Shown here piece after piece: positions 9,719 through 35,869 of a DNA stretch of 64,000 bases. Source of the DNA: Granulicella cerasi (lineage in GTDB: Bacteria; Acidobacteriota; Terriglobia; Terriglobales; Acidobacteriaceae); the NCBI RefSeq assembly GCF_025685575.1, contig NZ_JAGSYD010000001.1, positions 809,852-873,851 on the forward strand, read 5' to 3'. The position numbers and the translations under genes were made by a program. The notes beneath the pieces are model-generated. The model was not told where the DNA came from, did no database searches, and saw nothing but the letters and a program-made list of their open reading frames with translations. The stretch's first letter is position 1. Each line of letters begins with the position of its first letter.

Positions 9719-10411
9719 ATGCCTCTGAACGTTGCACTCATCATTTTCGAGCTGGTCCTGATGGTTTTGGCCATCTGCATCCACGACTGCGCGCAGGCGT
9801 GGGCGGCCAATAAGCTTGGCGACCCCACGGCCCGCATGCTGGGCCGCATGACCATGAACCCCGCCGCGCACTTCGACCTCTTTGGCATGGTGATCTGGCC
9901 GCTGCTCTACATCTGGCGTTCGCCGATGGTGCTTGGCTGGGGCAAGCCTGTACCGATGACCTGGCGGAACTTCAGCAAGAAGAACGGCGAAATGCTCGCT
10001 ACACTCGCCGGCCCTGCCGCGCAGCTCGGGACGGCGATCGTCTGCCTGATCGTCCTCGTGATTTTGAAGCACACCGTTGCCGGAGCCGCGGACTCGCTTG
10101 TGGATGCGCTGGTACTGACCATGCGTGCGCCGGTCGACACCACGGCGCTGCCAGGCGTGTTTCCCGTGCTGTTGCTGCTGGACATCGCGATCTTCGTGAA
10201 CCTGCTGCTGGCGATCTTCAACCTCGTGCCCATTCCGTTCCTCGACGGTGGCAAGATCCTGGTGCACTTCCTGCCGTATGACGCGGCGAAGGCCTTCGAG
10301 CAGTACGGCCTCTACATCATGATCGCGTTCTTCTTCTTCGGCTTCACGATCATCATGGCGGTCTTTAGCCCCGTATTTACGATCTTCCAAAGGCTGCTGC
10401 TTTCGCTCTAA
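9719..10411 (+). CDS. Site-2 protease (M50) homologue with altered active site
   Basis: 230 residues with about five or six membrane segments and the general order of YwhC-type M50 intramembrane proteases. The first motif, normally HExxH, reads H22-D-C-A-Q26, so the catalytic Glu is Asp and the second zinc-binding His is Gln. The second motif, NLVPIPFLDGG, is intact with Asp176 as the third zinc ligand. AWAANKLGDPTAR, after the first motif, is typical of the family. It may be a pseudo-protease or use an unusual metal site. A TATCCT stands eight bases before the ATG, which suggests a leaderless transcript. Confidence 0.8.
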   Translation: MPLNVALIIFELVLMVLAICIHDCAQAWAANKLGDPTARMLGRMTMNPAAHFDLFGMVIWPLLYIWRSPMVLGWGKPVPMTWRNFSKKNGEMLATLAGPAAQLGTAIVCLIVLVILKHTVAGAADSLVDALVLTMRAPVDTTALPGVFPVLLLLDIAIFVNLLLAIFNLVPIPFLDGGKILVHFLPYDAAKAFEQYGLYIMIAFFFFGFTIIMAVFSPVFTIFQRLLLSL

Positions 10412-29034: not shown

Positions 29035-29067
29035 AGAGCACGGGTGCTCGTCGCGCCGATCTATCGG

Positions 29068-29345
29068 CCTCCACAAACCTCTCTGGAAACCCAGGTCTCC
29101 AAAAATCGAGACCTGGGGCACCCGTTCGTGCGGGCTTCGGTCTCCGCAAACCTCTGGAAACCCAGGTCTCCAAGAATCGAGACCTGGGGCACCCGTCGTC
29201 CGGGGCTTCGGTCTCCGCAAACCTCTCTGGAAACCCAGGTCTCCAAAAATCGAGACCTGGGGCACCCGTCGTGCGGGCTTCGGTCTCCGCAAACCTCTCT
29301 GGAAACCCAGGTCTCCAAAATCGAGACCTGGGGCACCCGTTCGTG
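29068..29345 (+). repeat. Tandem array of four hairpin repeats
   Basis: Four units start at 29090, 29161, 29234 and 29306, a period of 71-73 bases. Each has CCCAGGTCTC, loop (C)AAAAATC, GAGACCTGGG, GCACCCG. The bases between (GGCTTCGGTCTCCGCAAACC and similar) are also nearly identical, so the array arose by recent duplication of a longer unit. The start of htrA lies 67 bases after it. It is not a CRISPR array, because the intervening parts do not vary and no cas gene is near. Confidence 0.85.
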
Positions 29346-31064: not shown

Positions 31065-31376
31065 TTAGTAGCGTCCGCTACGCTCACGCTTCTTGACGTC
31101 GTGGTCCTTGCGGGCCTTGTTGGCGAGCAGTCCACCACCCGCGCCGACGCCTGCACCGATCAGGGCGCCCTTCGGCCCACCGGCCACCGCACCGATCACT
31201 GCTCCGCCAGCGGCTGAGCCACCGACGACCTTCGCCTTCGTGTGGTGCCGCGCATCGGAGCGCTCCTGCGCATGCTTGGCTTCCTCATGCTCGCGATACG
31301 TCTGTGCCCCGGCCGCAAGCGGCAACGAGACGACTGAAATCAAAGCGACCTTTGCTGCGATCTTCATCATGTTCAT
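31065..31376 (-). CDS. Glycine-zipper periplasmic protein
   Basis: 103 residues. Signal peptide (about 1-24, ending AAGA), a charged and His-rich stretch (about 25-50), then a glycine-zipper segment from VVGGSAAGGAV to GAGGGLLANKARKDH (about 50-92) and a basic end. AGGAG precedes the ATG. Such segments form membrane-inserting or oligomerising helices, as in SlyB/YgdI-type outer-membrane proteins, but no function is known for this type. It is a paralogue of the gene at 31405. Confidence 0.75.
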   Translation of the reverse strand: MNMMKIAAKVALISVVSLPLAAGAQTYREHEEAKHAQERSDARHHTKAKVVGGSAAGGAVIGAVAGGPKGALIGAGVGAGGGLLANKARKDHDVKKRERSGRY

Positions 31377-31404: not shown

Positions 31405-31719
31405 CTAGTAGTGGTTCGGGGATGCGTACTTCTGACGCTGCTTGATGGAGTGGTGCTTACGCGCCTTGTTGCCGATCACACCCGCGCCTGCACCGATACC
31501 CGCACCTACAACCGCGCCGACAGGACCACCGACCACGGCGCCGGTCGCTGCACCGCCGGCAGCGCCACCGCCCACGAGCTTGGCCTTGTTGTGGTGCTTG
31601 GCATCATGCGCCTCTACCTGCGCCTTGGCGTCTGCATGAGACTCCTGCGCGGCGAGCGTGAGTGGGGCGACCGAGAAACTTCCGAGAAGAACAACTGCTG
31701 CAAGTCTGGTGACGTTCAT
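31405..31719 (-). CDS. Glycine-zipper periplasmic protein, paralogue
   Basis: 104 residues from the ATG at 31719, with GGAGG about seven bases before it. The frame stays open further, but that start has no ribosome-binding site. Signal peptide to about residue 24 (LTLAAQ), a charged stretch with HADAKAQVEAHDAKHH, then VVGGPVGAVVGAGIGAGAG and NKARKHHSIKQ. It has the same layout as the next gene (31065), 28 bases downstream, so the two came from a duplication and are probably cotranscribed. Confidence 0.75.
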   Translation of the reverse strand: MNVTRLAAVVLLGSFSVAPLTLAAQESHADAKAQVEAHDAKHHNKAKLVGGGAAGGAATGAVVGGPVGAVVGAGIGAGAGVIGNKARKHHSIKQRQKYASPNHY

Positions 31720-31854
31720 GTGCAATCCTCCGACGTCGTACAGGAAAGATGGATGGCTCGGTTTCGCCGTAAGTGGCCTAAAAAGCAGTAAAAAGATACA
31801 TTTTTCGCGGGCAACCCTTGCGTTTCGGCTTAGTCGGGAGTACGTTAGCTAGGA
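31720..31854. other. Region between glycine-zipper genes and the aromatic leader
   Basis: This is the first part of the 333-base gap before trpB. Promoter candidates for the plus strand are TTGCGT-17-TACGTT (31818-31846) and a TACATT at 31797. Neither is strong. With the first, the transcript would begin at or next to the ATG at 31855. Confidence 0.35.
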
Positions 31855-31929
31855 ATGCGTAACTCGTTCAGCCCGTTTTTTGCGTTTCCGTTCCGCTACT
31901 GGCCCCCGGTAGCGGCGATGGCGGACTGA
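31855..31929 (+). CDS. Aromatic-rich leader peptide of the trp/aro operon
   Basis: A 24-codon frame from ATG 31855 to TGA 31927. Residues 5-16 read FSPFFAFPFRYW: five Phe codons, then one Tyr and one Trp side by side. The likeness in composition to E. coli PheL is clear. The aromatic codons end exactly where a hairpin begins (31893-31915), and a terminator lies 60 bases further on. This is the standard order of a ribosome-mediated attenuator. The ribosome-binding site is weak, so the message may be leaderless. The role is inferred from this arrangement. Confidence 0.6.
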   Translation: MRNSFSPFFAFPFRYWPPVAAMAD

Positions 31930-31993
31930 GCCTGCACGAAGCTCCAAAGCAACACTGAGACTTCGAAGCAACGCACAAGAACCTCCGAGCCGC
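31893..31993 (+). promoter_or_regulatory. Alternative pairings of the attenuator
   Basis: Arm 1 CCGCTACTGG (31893-31902) pairs with arm 2 CCGGTAGCGG (31906-31915): ten pairs, one G-U, loop CCC. Arm 2 can instead pair GCGGC (31912-31916) with arm 3 GCCGC (31989-31993), which is the 5' side of the terminator. A ribosome paused at the aromatic codons would cover arm 1 and free arm 2; one at the stop codon would sit on arm 2. No folding energy was computed. Confidence 0.5.
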
Positions 31994-32022
31994 GACCCTA
32001 CCCAGGGCGCGGCTTTTGCTTT
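31988..32022 (+). terminator. Attenuator terminator before trpB
   Basis: AGCCGCG (31988-31994) pairs with CGCGGCT (32008-32014). CCCT/AGGG extends the stem inside past a one-base bulge. TTTTGCTTT follows. The trpB start is 30 bases downstream, so the site must be read through for expression of the operon. Confidence 0.8.
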
Positions 32023-32052: not shown

Positions 32053-33279
32053 ATGAGCGCAGTGGAGACGATGACGAAACCAGCAGCCGAGATCGCAGGA
32101 CGCTTCGGCGCCTACGGTGGCCGCTACGTGCCGGAGACGCTGATGGCCGCGCTGCTCGAACTCGACCAGTGCTACGCCGACGCGCAGGCTGACCCGGCGT
32201 TTCATGCGGAACTCGACCACCTGCTGCACACCTACTGCGGCCGTCCTACGCCGTTGTACTTCGCCAAGCGCCTGAGCGAGCAGCTTGGCGGCGCGAAGAT
32301 CTACCTGAAGCGCGAAGACCTGCTGCACACCGGCGCGCACAAGATCAACAACGCGCTGGGGCAGGCGTTGCTCGCCAAGCGCATGGGCAAGACGCGCATC
32401 ATCGCCGAGACAGGCGCGGGCCAGCATGGCGTGGCGACCGCCACGGTCTGCGCGTTGTTTGGGCTGGAGTGCGTGGTCTACATGGGCGAAGAAGATATGC
32501 GCCGCCAGGAGCCGAACGTCTACCGTATGCGCTTGCTTGGCGCAGAGGTGCGCGGTGTGGGCGCGGGTTCGGCCACGCTGAAGGACGCGATCAATGAAGC
32601 GATGCGCGACTGGGTCACGAACGTGCGCGACACGTTCTACATCCTCGGCTCGGCGCTCGGCTCGCATCCTTACCCGACGATCGTGCGCGACTTCCAGCGC
32701 GTCATCTCGCGTGAGTCGCGCGAGCAGATTCTCGCCGCAGAAGGCAAGCTACCGGACACCGTTGTGGCTTGTGTCGGAGGTGGCTCGAACGCGATTGGCG
32801 CGTTCTATGAGTACCTGAACGATGCGAGCGTGGCGCTGGTCGGCGTAGAGGCTGGTGGACGCGGCACCGCGCTTGGCGAACACGCTGCACGCTTCCACGG
32901 CGGCATCCCCGGCGTGCTGCAGGGCACGTACAGCTATGTGTTGCAGAATGACGCCGGTCAGGTGGCTTCGACGCACTCGGTGAGCGCGGGCCTCGACTAC
33001 GCGAGCGTCGGCCCCGAGCACGCGATGCTGCATGACTCGGGCCGCGCGACGTACACCTACGCGATGGACCACGAAGCGCTCGACGCGGTGAAGGTGTTGA
33101 GCCGCACGGAAGGCATCATCCCGGCGCTGGAGTCGGCACACGCGATTGCTGAGGCGATGAAGCTCGCGCCGAAGATGAGCAAGGATCAGGTGCTGATGGT
33201 GAACGTCAGCGGTCGTGGCGATAAGGACCTTGGGATTTTGCGGAACGAGATGAGCTTGGAAGGTGCGGGAGAGAAGTAG
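32053..33279 (+). CDS. trpB: Tryptophan synthase beta subunit
   Basis: 408 residues; joins indole with serine to give tryptophan, using PLP. The PLP lysine stands in [15 protein letters not shown] (near residue 95), with [13 protein letters not shown] following and the phosphate-binding GGGSNAIG near 242. AGGAG precedes the ATG at 32053. Its stop TAG shares one base with the GTG start of the small gene at 33279, so the two are translationally coupled. It heads the operon under the leader described at 31855. Confidence 0.98.
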
Positions 33280-33692
33280 TGGTCACCCTGCCAATAAAGA
33301 GGAAGCTTTATACCATTCCAGTTGCTTCTACGAGTTTTGTTGAAGAGGCCGTTTGGGATGGTCGTAAGCAAGCAATTATCTTCTCGTACGAATTGGAGTC
33401 GAATCCGAAGGAGTTTCGTACAGTTGGTATCCGATTCCAGCGCCCTCAGCTACTCGTGAAACGTTCTGAAGCGATGTGCCGAGCGGAGCAGATCGAAGCT
33501 TGCTACGACATCCTCGTAGAGATAGAAAACTCACCTTTGTTGCATGAATACAAAGAAGAGATTGAGCGGGGACGCATAAACCAGGCTCATCACTACATGA
33601 TTTATCTCGATAGCGTAGGCAGCTTCGAGTTGATTGCAGAAGGTTGGACAGTTGAAGACGTCTTGCAAGAATCGAAAGAAGGTAAGCAGTGA
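33279..33692 (+). CDS. Orphan gene between trpB and trpA
   Basis: 137 residues that I do not recognise. No signal peptide or membrane segment. It is a charged soluble protein with VEEAVWDGRKQAIIFSYELE near the start and HHYMIYLDSVGSFELIAEGW near the end. It overlaps trpB by one base (TAGTG) and trpA by four (GTGA), so it is fully built into the operon. Its base composition is visibly lower in GC (roughly 48 percent against over 60 for its neighbours) and its codons are AT-ending, which suggests recent acquisition. A function in tryptophan synthesis is possible but nothing shows it. Confidence 0.7.
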   Translation: MVTLPIKRKLYTIPVASTSFVEEAVWDGRKQAIIFSYELESNPKEFRTVGIRFQRPQLLVKRSEAMCRAEQIEACYDILVEIENSPLLHEYKEEIERGRINQAHHYMIYLDSVGSFELIAEGWTVEDVLQESKEGKQ

Positions 33693-34465
33693 TTTCGTTT
33701 GCGAATAAGCCCGGCCTCGTTATCTACCTCACCGCGGGCGACCCCGATCTTGCCACTACGCGCGACATGGCGATCGCCGCGATTGACGCAGGTGCGGATG
33801 TTATCGAACTCGGTGTGCCGTTCAGCGATCCGTTGGCCGATGGCCCGGTGATTCAGCGTGCGAGTGAGCGTGCGGTGGCGAGGGGAACTCGGCTCGAAGA
33901 CGTGCTGAAGACCTGCCGTGAGATTCGTGATGCGCGGGCGAGCGCGGGCATCATTCTCTTCAGCTATCTCAACCCTGTGGTGCGCTTTGGCATGAGTGCT
34001 TTCGCGAAGGCCGCGAAGGCCGCGGGTGCGGATGGTGTGTTGCTCACCGACATGATCGTGGAAGAGGCGGGCGAGTATCTCGAAGCGATGCGCGCGAATG
34101 ATCTTGCGCCGGTGTTTCTCGCTGCGCCGACCTCGCCGGATGAACGCCTCAAGGCCATCGCAGAGAACTCGCGCGGATTCGTCTACGCGATCTCGCGCGT
34201 GGGCATCACGGGTACGCAGACGGAACTTGCTGCCGATGCAGAGACGCTGGTGAAGCGCCTCAAGCAGTTCGCCCAGGTCCCTGTCGCGCTGGGCTTCGGC
34301 ATCTCGACGCCGGAGCATGTGAAGACCGTTGCAGGCTTTGCGGACGCGGCTGTGGTGGGTTCGGCGATCGTTGCGCTGGTGGAGAAGACTCCCGCAGCGG
34401 ATGCGCCTAAGGCCGTTGGCGAGTTTGTTCGCTCGCTCAAGCAAGGAGGCCAGCCTTCAAGCTAA
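33689..34465 (+). CDS. trpA: Tryptophan synthase alpha subunit
   Basis: 258 residues; splits indole-3-glycerol phosphate to indole, which passes to TrpB. The catalytic Glu is in IELGVPFSDPLADGP (near residue 45), the Asp in LLTDMIVEE and the phosphate-binding GFGIST near 200. Starts at a GTG that overlaps the orphan gene by four bases. An ATG-free start with coupling explains the missing Shine-Dalgarno sequence. The chorismate mutase gene follows after 52 bases. Confidence 0.97.
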   Translation: MISFANKPGLVIYLTAGDPDLATTRDMAIAAIDAGADVIELGVPFSDPLADGPVIQRASERAVARGTRLEDVLKTCREIRDARASAGIILFSYLNPVVRFGMSAFAKAAKAAGADGVLLTDMIVEEAGEYLEAMRANDLAPVFLAAPTSPDERLKAIAENSRGFVYAISRVGITGTQTELAADAETLVKRLKQFAQVPVALGFGISTPEHVKTVAGFADAAVVGSAIVALVEKTPAADAPKAVGEFVRSLKQGGQPSS

Positions 34466-34517
34466 ACGCATATCATCAACTGGCACCGACATTCAGATTC
34501 TGGCACGGAGAAGCACG

Positions 34518-34781
34518 ATGGAAATAGCGGACTGGCGTAACAAGATTGACGAGATCGACGAGCAGATCACCGTTCTGCTGAACAAGCGCGCAGAGTGCGC
34601 CGTCGAGATTGGCAAGCTGAAACTGGCGAATGCTGCTGCAGTGTACGAACCGCAGCGCGAACAGCGTGTCTTTGAGCACGTGAGCGCCGTAAGCACCGGT
34701 CCGCTGACCACCGCCGAACTGACTGACATTTATCAGCGCGTCATGGACGTGATGCGCAACAAACAGAGGCCCGCCAAGTAA
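34518..34781 (+). CDS. Chorismate mutase, AroQ type
   Basis: 87 residues, all of it one AroQ helical domain. It converts chorismate to prephenate, the first step to phenylalanine and tyrosine. ADWRNKIDEIDEQITVLLNKR (in parts: WRNKIDEIDEQI) and the basic KLKLANAAAVYEPQREQ are typical. It is not fused to prephenate dehydratase or dehydrogenase. The ATG at 34518 is preceded by CGGAG. The frame is open upstream within trpA but the family begins here. Part of the trp/aro operon. Confidence 0.93.
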   Translation: MEIADWRNKIDEIDEQITVLLNKRAECAVEIGKLKLANAAAVYEPQREQRVFEHVSAVSTGPLTTAELTDIYQRVMDVMRNKQRPAK

Positions 34782-34825
34782 GCGCGAACAGCCTCGTCGA
34801 ACTCGACGAAAAGAGGATTGAAGTG

Positions 34826-35869
34826 ATGATCGTTGCCATGCAGGACAACGCAAGTACAGAGCAAATTGTGAACGTGATCGAGCGCATGGAGTCGCTCGGT
34901 TTCAACGTGCATCGCACCACCGGCGAAACGCAGACCATCCTCGCGGGTGTCGGCACGCCTTCGCACTTTGAGGTGACCGAGTTTCAGGTGTTGCCGGGTG
35001 TGCAGCAGGCGTACCGGATCTCGTCGCCGTACAAGCTGGCGGGTCGCGGCTTCCGCCCGGAAGGCACGCGCATCACCTTCCCCAACGGCGTGGTCGTTGG
35101 CGGTGAAGAGATTGTCGTGATGGCGGGTCCGTGCTCGGTGGAGTCGCGCGAGCAGATCATGCTGAGCGCGAAGCAGGTGGCTGCTGCTGGCGGACAGTTC
35201 CTGCGTGGTGGTGCGTACAAGCCGCGCTCGTCGCCGTACTCCTTCCAGGGCATGGGCGTCGAAGGCCTGAAGCTGATGCGCGAAGCCGCGGATGAACACG
35301 GCCTGCTTGTGATCACCGAGGTGATGGAGATCTCGCAGATCGAAACGATGCTGCCGTACATCGACTGCTTCCAGGTGGGCGCGCGCAACATGCAGAACTT
35401 CAACCTGCTGCGTGAGCTGGGCAAGGTGCGCAAGCCGGTGCTGATGAAGCGTGGCATCGCAGCGACGATTGAAGAGACGTTGCTCTCGGCCGAGTATGTG
35501 CTTTCGGGTGGCAACTACGACCTGATGCTTTGCGAGCGCGGCATTCGCACGTACGAAACTGCAACGCGCAACACGATGGACATCTCCGCGATTCCAGTGC
35601 TGAAGAAGCTGACGCATCTGCCGGTCTTTGGCGATCCGTCGCACGGCGTGGGCATTCGCGCATTCGTTCCGCCGATGGCGCTGGCTGCTGTGGCTGCGGG
35701 CGCGGACGGCTTGCTGATGGAGATGCATCCGAACCCGGACAAGGCAATGAGCGATGGCGCTCAGTCGTTGACGCCCGAGCAGTTGAATGAGCTCGTCGCG
35801 AAGCTGCGCCAGCTTGCGCCGGTGGTCGATCGCTCGGTGGCTCCGGCTGTTCAGCCTGTGCACGTGTAA
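34826..35869 (+). CDS. aroF: 3-deoxy-7-phosphoheptulonate (DAHP) synthase
   Basis: 347 residues. First enzyme of the shikimate pathway, joining phosphoenolpyruvate and erythrose 4-phosphate. A ferredoxin-like N-terminal domain (about 1-75) is fused to the catalytic barrel. The motifs are MAGPCSVES, GAYKPRSSPYSFQG, VGARNMQNF and FGDPSHGVG. This is the type I-beta form with regulatory domain, as in Thermotoga, where tyrosine and phenylalanine inhibit through the added domain. GTG at 34823 is an alternative start; I chose the ATG with AGAGG nine bases before. Last gene of the operon. Confidence 0.95.
   Translation: MIVAMQDNASTEQIVNVIERMESLGFNVHRTTGETQTILAGVGTPSHFEVTEFQVLPGVQQAYRISSPYKLAGRGFRPEGTRITFPNGVVVGGEEIVVMAGPCSVESREQIMLSAKQVAAAGGQFLRGGAYKPRSSPYSFQGMGVEGLKLMREAADEHGLLVITEVMEISQIETMLPYIDCFQVGARNMQNFNLLRELGKVRKPVLMKRGIAATIEETLLSAEYVLSGGNYDLMLCERGIRTYETATRNTMDISAIPVLKKLTHLPVFGDPSHGVGIRAFVPPMALAAVAAGADGLLMEMHPNPDKAMSDGAQSLTPEQLNELVAKLRQLAPVVDRSVAPAVQPVHV

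Follow-up and report, generated by a model that had tools for sequence, protein, structure and literature searches.

The window, a 64,000-nt stretch of Granulicella cerasi DNA, carries a predicted operon in which trpB and trpA are followed by chorismate mutase and DAHP synthase genes, preceded by a short open reading frame, a hairpin and an intrinsic terminator (Table 1). The order trpB–trpA–chorismate mutase–DAHP synthase is widely kept among relatives. The small protein encoded between trpB and trpA matched nothing in Pfam or NCBIfam; of the loci fetched, only that of Granulicella paludicola has a relative of it (about 40% identity) at this position. Two adjacent genes on the reverse strand, divergent from the predicted leader promoter, encode small glycine-zipper-like secreted proteins that are apparently duplicated (31065-31376 and 31405-31725), and about four 71-bp units arranged in tandem (29064-29345) read as repeated peptides in several frames and are suspected to form a non-coding repeat.

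Table 1. Leader elements and genes at the trpB locus, in window coordinates
Feature	Positions	Strand	Evidence or remarks
Predicted leader promoter, -35 element TTGCGT	31818..31823	+	17-nt spacer; conservation of TTGN-17/18-TAnnnT; not listed by a single-window promoter scan
Predicted leader promoter, -10 element TACGTT	31841..31846	+	ends 8 nt before the leader ATG
Leader peptide gene, MRNSFSPFFAFPFRYWPPVAAMAD*	31855..31929	+	frame open in 99/100 homologues
Predicted control window, codons F11-P12-F13-R14-Y15-W16	31885..31902	+	constrained folding; conservation of aromatic positions
Arm 1 of pause/protector hairpin 1:2, holding the Tyr and Trp codons	31893..31902	+	folding; covariation
Arm 2, partner of arm 1, or of arm 3 via GCGGC and a 3' extension	31906..31924	+	arm co-evolution
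Arm 3, 5' side of terminator and 3' side of antiterminator	31982..31998	+	covariation; arm co-evolution
Arm 4, 3' side of terminator stem	32005..32015	+	covariation
Interrupted U-tract, TTTTGCTTT	32014..32022	+	similar interrupted T-rich tract after the stem in congeners
trpB, tryptophan synthase beta, first structural gene	32053..33279	+	TIGR00263, 629 bits
Uncharacterised 137-aa protein	33279..33692	+	between trpB and trpA; start and stop overlap its neighbours
trpA, tryptophan synthase alpha	33689..34465	+	TIGR00262
Chorismate mutase, type II	34512..34781	+	PF01817, TIGR01807
DAHP synthase (B. subtilis type), last gene of the predicted operon	34823..35869	+	TIGR01361, PRK08673

The leader and its transcript start

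The leader gene runs for 24 codons to a TGA at 31927-31929, and its product contains FFAFPFRYW and, in all, five Phe, one Tyr and one Trp. Hairpin 1:2 (CCGCTACTGG/CCC/CCGGTAGCGG, 31893-31915) has 10 bp, and its arm 1 (CCGCTACTGG) comprises the end of the Phe13 codon together with the codons for Arg14, Tyr15 (31897-31899) and Trp16 (31900-31902). The terminator, GAGCCGCGACCC..GGGCGCGGC TTTTGCTTT, extends to 32022 with its stem at 31987-31998/32005-32015 and ends 30 nt before the trpB ATG. The sequence bears out these elements as the initial annotation had described them: the 24-codon frame, the 10-bp hairpin whose 5' arm covers the Tyr and Trp codons, and the terminator 30 bases ahead of trpB.

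Taken alone, this one sequence gives modest evidence. When the segment is shuffled by dinucleotides, an open frame with seven aromatic codons appears in 0.16% of cases, and among the 385 short ATG open reading frames in the window just 2, the leader included, are equally rich in aromatic residues. The folding energy of the 261-nt region is unremarkable (z -1.65), and a simple terminator scan of the window did not pick up the leader terminator, probably because its U-tract is broken by GC. It is conservation that places the leader far above chance.

A promoter of the form TTGN-17/18-TAnnnT, or TTGC-17/18-TAnnnT, is shared by the upstream regions of 97 non-redundant leaders to a degree well above that in shuffled sequences. 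Its -10 element ends 4–13 nt (mostly 7–10) before the leader ATG in 88% of these loci, compared with 18% after shuffling. Transcription is accordingly predicted to start at about 31852-31855, at or adjoining the leader ATG. So short a gap leaves no space for a Shine-Dalgarno sequence, and initiation on the leader is therefore predicted to be leaderless or nearly so.

Coding signature and control codons

Among 22 trpB loci of the same genus, fetched for comparison, hairpin and terminator are present in all 22 that are readable, and the leader precedes trpB in every readable congener; in one locus the upstream part is masked by N. Indels in the coding part of these leaders come in multiples of three, and at genus level the peptide is conserved as SPRFTPS[FY]RYWP.VAASVE. 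Beyond the genus, conservation is confined to the aromatic positions and to residues constrained by the RNA, and the rest varies freely, with peptide lengths from 17 to 35.

The wider comparison used 100 strong matches to a covariance model that was built without the upstream ATG region; 99 of them nevertheless have an in-frame ATG shortly upstream of the modelled part. Up to and including arm 1, Phe, Tyr and Trp make up 35% of residues in the leader frame as against 4% and 10% in the two other frames, which contain many stops. Counted from the Trp codon as position 0, aromatic residues occupy position -5 in 84% of the 100 leaders, -3 in 92%, -1 in 91% and 0 in 88%, with mostly non-aromatic residues between them. 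These positions read F, F/Y, Y and W, and in the window they correspond to F11, F13, Y15 and W16.

Three alternative pairings

Compensatory changes in 95 model-aligned sequences support pairings 1:2 and 3:4 (11 pairs, 91 cells; none of 500 shuffles as high), counts which are inflated by the relatedness of the sequences and come from an alignment itself fitted to the model. Among them, in 12 sequences, U-A replaces C-G where the Tyr codon has its third base. Since arms 2 and 3 are unpaired with each other in the model, their co-evolution constitutes an independent test: native arm pairs have a mean energy of -21.1 kcal/mol as against -19.4 kcal/mol for arms exchanged among loci (z -6.5, 0/200). 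Because common descent may raise such figures, controls were included. The reversed control gives z -1.6; the part of the antiterminator lying outside GCGGC/GCCGC gives z -5.2 on its own, its control being +1.1. An initial set of 36 sequences had yielded no support for 1:2 and none above chance for 2:3; that set had been gathered partly by a pattern that fixes those very bases, and the broader, model-based set resolved the matter.

The check that had been proposed, whether relatives keep the aromatic codons and show covarying pairs, thus came out in favour of the attenuator, with covariation in both the terminator and the pause hairpin and with frame, codons and pairings conserved. The GCGGC/GCCGC antiterminator held up in that its arms co-evolve, and had to be extended in that the pairing is longer than 5 bp, at about -21 kcal/mol both here and on average.

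How would a ribosome on the leader influence the choice among these pairings? We folded the window leader as transcribed to the end of arm 3, varying the position of the ribosome. With the ribosome upstream 1:2 forms, with its A site at codons 11-15 2:3 forms, and with the ribosome anywhere from codon 17 to the stop 2:3 does not form. For a stall at Trp16 the outcome depends on the downstream footprint, 2:3 forming only if this is at most 11 nt, since a longer footprint covers the core of arm 2. F5, F8 and F9 lie too far upstream in this folding model and are predicted to have no or weak effect. Folding and position data therefore agree that the conserved aromatic positions are the codons where stalling would release arm 2. 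Once the whole leader has been transcribed, the terminator is the more stable fold wherever the ribosome stands, so that antitermination would have to be kinetic; a kinetic decision is usual for known attenuators.

Distribution and downstream genes

A scan of 84,980 species genomes with a 26-nt pattern, TWCCGCTACTGGNNNNNNGTAGCGGC, gave 37 matching stretches. By name or label, most belong to Acidobacteria or Acidobacteriaceae (Terriglobus, Granulicella, Edaphobacter and Bryocella among them); one record title gives Verrucomicrobia and another just 'bacterium'. The majority lie upstream of trpB and the remainder upstream of aroK or a DAHP synthase gene. Within the family, the covariance model found matches in 170 of the 300 genomes searched and in 44 of the 79 genera, a minority of these matches being individually inspected, with no more than five in any genome and one in that of the window. 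Searched across the phylum, it gave fewer and weaker matches outside the family. Several of these are leaders rich in Phe and Tyr, such as MRKSFNNFSFYFYFSGKAAEVCVRIG and MNTGRQYFYFYYFYLK, that precede chorismate mutase, prephenate dehydratase or DAHP synthase genes, and they possibly represent a wider, older form of the element. Eight weak loci at phylum level encode no aromatic peptides and were set aside as ordinary terminators.

The idea that the leader always precedes trpB across the family was rejected, as other genera have none there; several of these still keep the trpB–trpA–chorismate mutase–DAHP synthase order, and some carry a leader before a separate DAHP synthase gene. Congeners have a second leader upstream of the shikimate kinase gene aroK, which is absent before aroK in the window's genome (C2:929666-929872). 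There, aroK directly follows a response-regulator-like gene.

All strong matches examined that have a downstream coding sequence precede aromatic-pathway genes: trpB in 41, aroK in 29, DAHP synthase in 22 and chorismate mutase in 7. The Trp codon is present in 41/41 leaders before trpB, 29/29 before aroK, 18 of the 21 read before DAHP synthase and 0/7 before chorismate mutase, although these last come from a few related genera and do not amount to seven independent events. Prephenate dehydratase and/or DAHP synthase genes are visible in 5 of the 7 operons that begin with chorismate mutase. Judged from its codons, the specificity of the leader follows the downstream operon and is adjusted to it.

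This pattern, together with the four conserved positions, leads us to revise the initial view that control rests mainly on Phe; all three aromatic amino acids appear to be read. The accompanying suggestion, that control by the three together suits an operon that includes chorismate mutase and DAHP synthase, is strengthened by the lack of a Trp codon in chorismate-mutase-first leaders, and it answers the puzzle of Phe codons ahead of a Trp gene.

Proposed mechanism and alternatives

Established by comparison among relatives, the coding frame, the placement of codons, the three alternative pairings and the association with particular genes point to a ribosome-mediated transcription attenuator for aromatic amino acids, a reading to which we assign a probability of roughly 0.9. 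The locus would combine a short open reading frame containing codons for the regulated amino acids, as its coding signature indicates; control codons sited, according to constrained folding and conservation, such that a stalled ribosome masks arm 1; conserved and mutually exclusive pairings 1:2, 2:3 and 3:4; and an intrinsic terminator with a U-tract before the first gene.

From this comparison we infer the start site, stalling, termination and response to starvation, and propose the following model. RNA polymerase would start at or a few bases from the leader ATG, with a ribosome trailing it through the 24 codons. When the tRNAs for Phe, Tyr and Trp are charged, the ribosome would pass F-x-F-R-Y-W and reach the stop codon; arm 2 would then be held off arm 3, either by hairpin 1:2 or by the ribosome, allowing the 3:4 terminator to form and leaving trpB, trpA and the chorismate mutase and DAHP synthase genes untranscribed. 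A shortage of any one of the three amino acids would stall the ribosome in codons 11-16 with arm 1 covered, so that arm 2 could pair with arm 3 while arm 4 has yet to be transcribed, the terminator would fail to form and the operon would be read. In the absence of translation, 1:2 and 3:4 would form and transcription would stop. In relatives the same element, its codons tuned to each operon, lies ahead of aroK, of DAHP synthase genes and of chorismate mutase/prephenate dehydratase genes. The leader frame before aroK continues far beyond arm 2 to its stop codon, and protection of arm 2 would there require 1:2 to reform.

The attenuator might be real and yet sense essentially Trp, or Phe, alone, with the other aromatic codons as ancestral baggage. 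A first gene that is trpB, the invariable Trp codon of trpB leaders and the five Phe codons in the window would fit such a device, but we consider it unlikely, since the F, F/Y, Y and W positions are kept at 84-92% over all operon classes and chorismate-mutase leaders drop only Trp. It is also conceivable that the locus pairs a terminator with a conserved small protein, the 24-aa peptide working in trans and the hairpin being incidental. The peptide is well conserved within the genus, and peTrpL of S. meliloti is known to act in trans (PMC7298713); against this, the free variation and variable length of the peptide outside the genus, the dependence of codon specificity on the downstream gene and the co-evolution of the RNA arms make a trans-acting peptide very unlikely.

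Still harder to credit is an RNA that senses a protein or ligand (a T-box, a riboswitch or a TRAP-like system) and runs the terminator, the open reading frame being a by-product: a terminator and a competing pairing do exist, but Rfam gave no T-box or riboswitch match and an aromatic-rich frame is open in 99 of 100 homologues. That an aromatic-rich short open reading frame lies beside an ordinary terminator by mere chance might be entertained given the weak folding score and a second such frame in the window, at 10319, but it is refuted by conservation, by matches in 170 of 300 family genomes and by the co-evolving arms, and we regard its probability as negligible.

On balance, we favour a broader proposal: that a leaderless attenuator reading the charging of Phe, Tyr and Trp jointly arose in Acidobacteriota, separately from the leaders of proteobacteria, and has spread or re-evolved at the aromatic pathway's entry, in its middle and at its branch points (DAHP synthase, shikimate kinase, chorismate mutase, prephenate dehydratase and trpBA genes) with codons tuned per operon, forming an RNA-only aromatic regulon. 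A phylum abundant in soils would thereby gain a class of regulatory RNA whose signal can be read, for which a covariance model exists and which makes clear predictions. One leader would integrate three amino acids of a single pathway, re-tuned by the gene it controls through keeping or losing the Trp codon, and the series of leaders by operon offers a natural test set for relating stall position to attenuator specificity. Routine initiation on leaderless leader peptides is also suggested.

Comparison with known systems

An Rfam search of the window returned no known leader family (Trp_leader, Phe_leader or others), T-box or riboswitch above the gathering score. The best match was RF02883 BcKCsr2, at 17.8 bits against a gathering score of 40 (31880-32020), with the same layout. 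BcKCsr2 has been described in papers as an iron-responsive Burkholderia sRNA; its hairpin–hairpin–terminator layout is that of an attenuator, and it may be a leader too. Our literature search, with one subscription survey outside its coverage, found actinobacterial, proteobacterial and firmicute attenuators and none for aromatic operons in Acidobacteria, in agreement with the initial annotation, which knew of no acidobacterial example.

The element works like a classical Trp or Phe attenuator yet belongs to no Rfam leader family. Enteric trpL (Trp_leader in Rfam) likewise has control codons in arm 1, 1:2, 2:3 and 3:4 pairings and an intrinsic terminator before a trp gene. Unlike it, the acidobacterial leader does not match Trp_leader, has F, Y and W codons instead of WW, leaves no room for a Shine-Dalgarno sequence, precedes a trpB operon that includes chorismate mutase and DAHP synthase, and serves other operons too. 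The enteric pheA and pheST attenuators (pheL; Phe_leader in Rfam) share a Phe-rich leader before a Phe-pathway gene; the acidobacterial leader differs in its lack of an Rfam match, its mixed Phe/Tyr/Trp control, its genes and its phylum.

A leaderless leader mRNA, predicted here, is known from the trpLE(G) attenuator of S. meliloti (rnTrpL/peTrpL), whose trpL transcript starts at the leader ATG (PMC7298713). That alphaproteobacterial system, unlike ours, responds to Trp only, at trpE(G), one of three trp operons. Classical trp attenuators outside Proteobacteria are found, as here, in Corynebacterium, where one precedes trpB2A in C. diphtheriae (PMC1262725), and in Streptomyces, but these contain only UGG runs, with no Phe or Tyr control. 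In the ilvB-II uORF motif and the ilv attenuators, as in the acidobacterial element, one leader reads several related amino acids of a shared pathway (PMC10272879), there branched-chain instead of aromatic and in one copy per genome.
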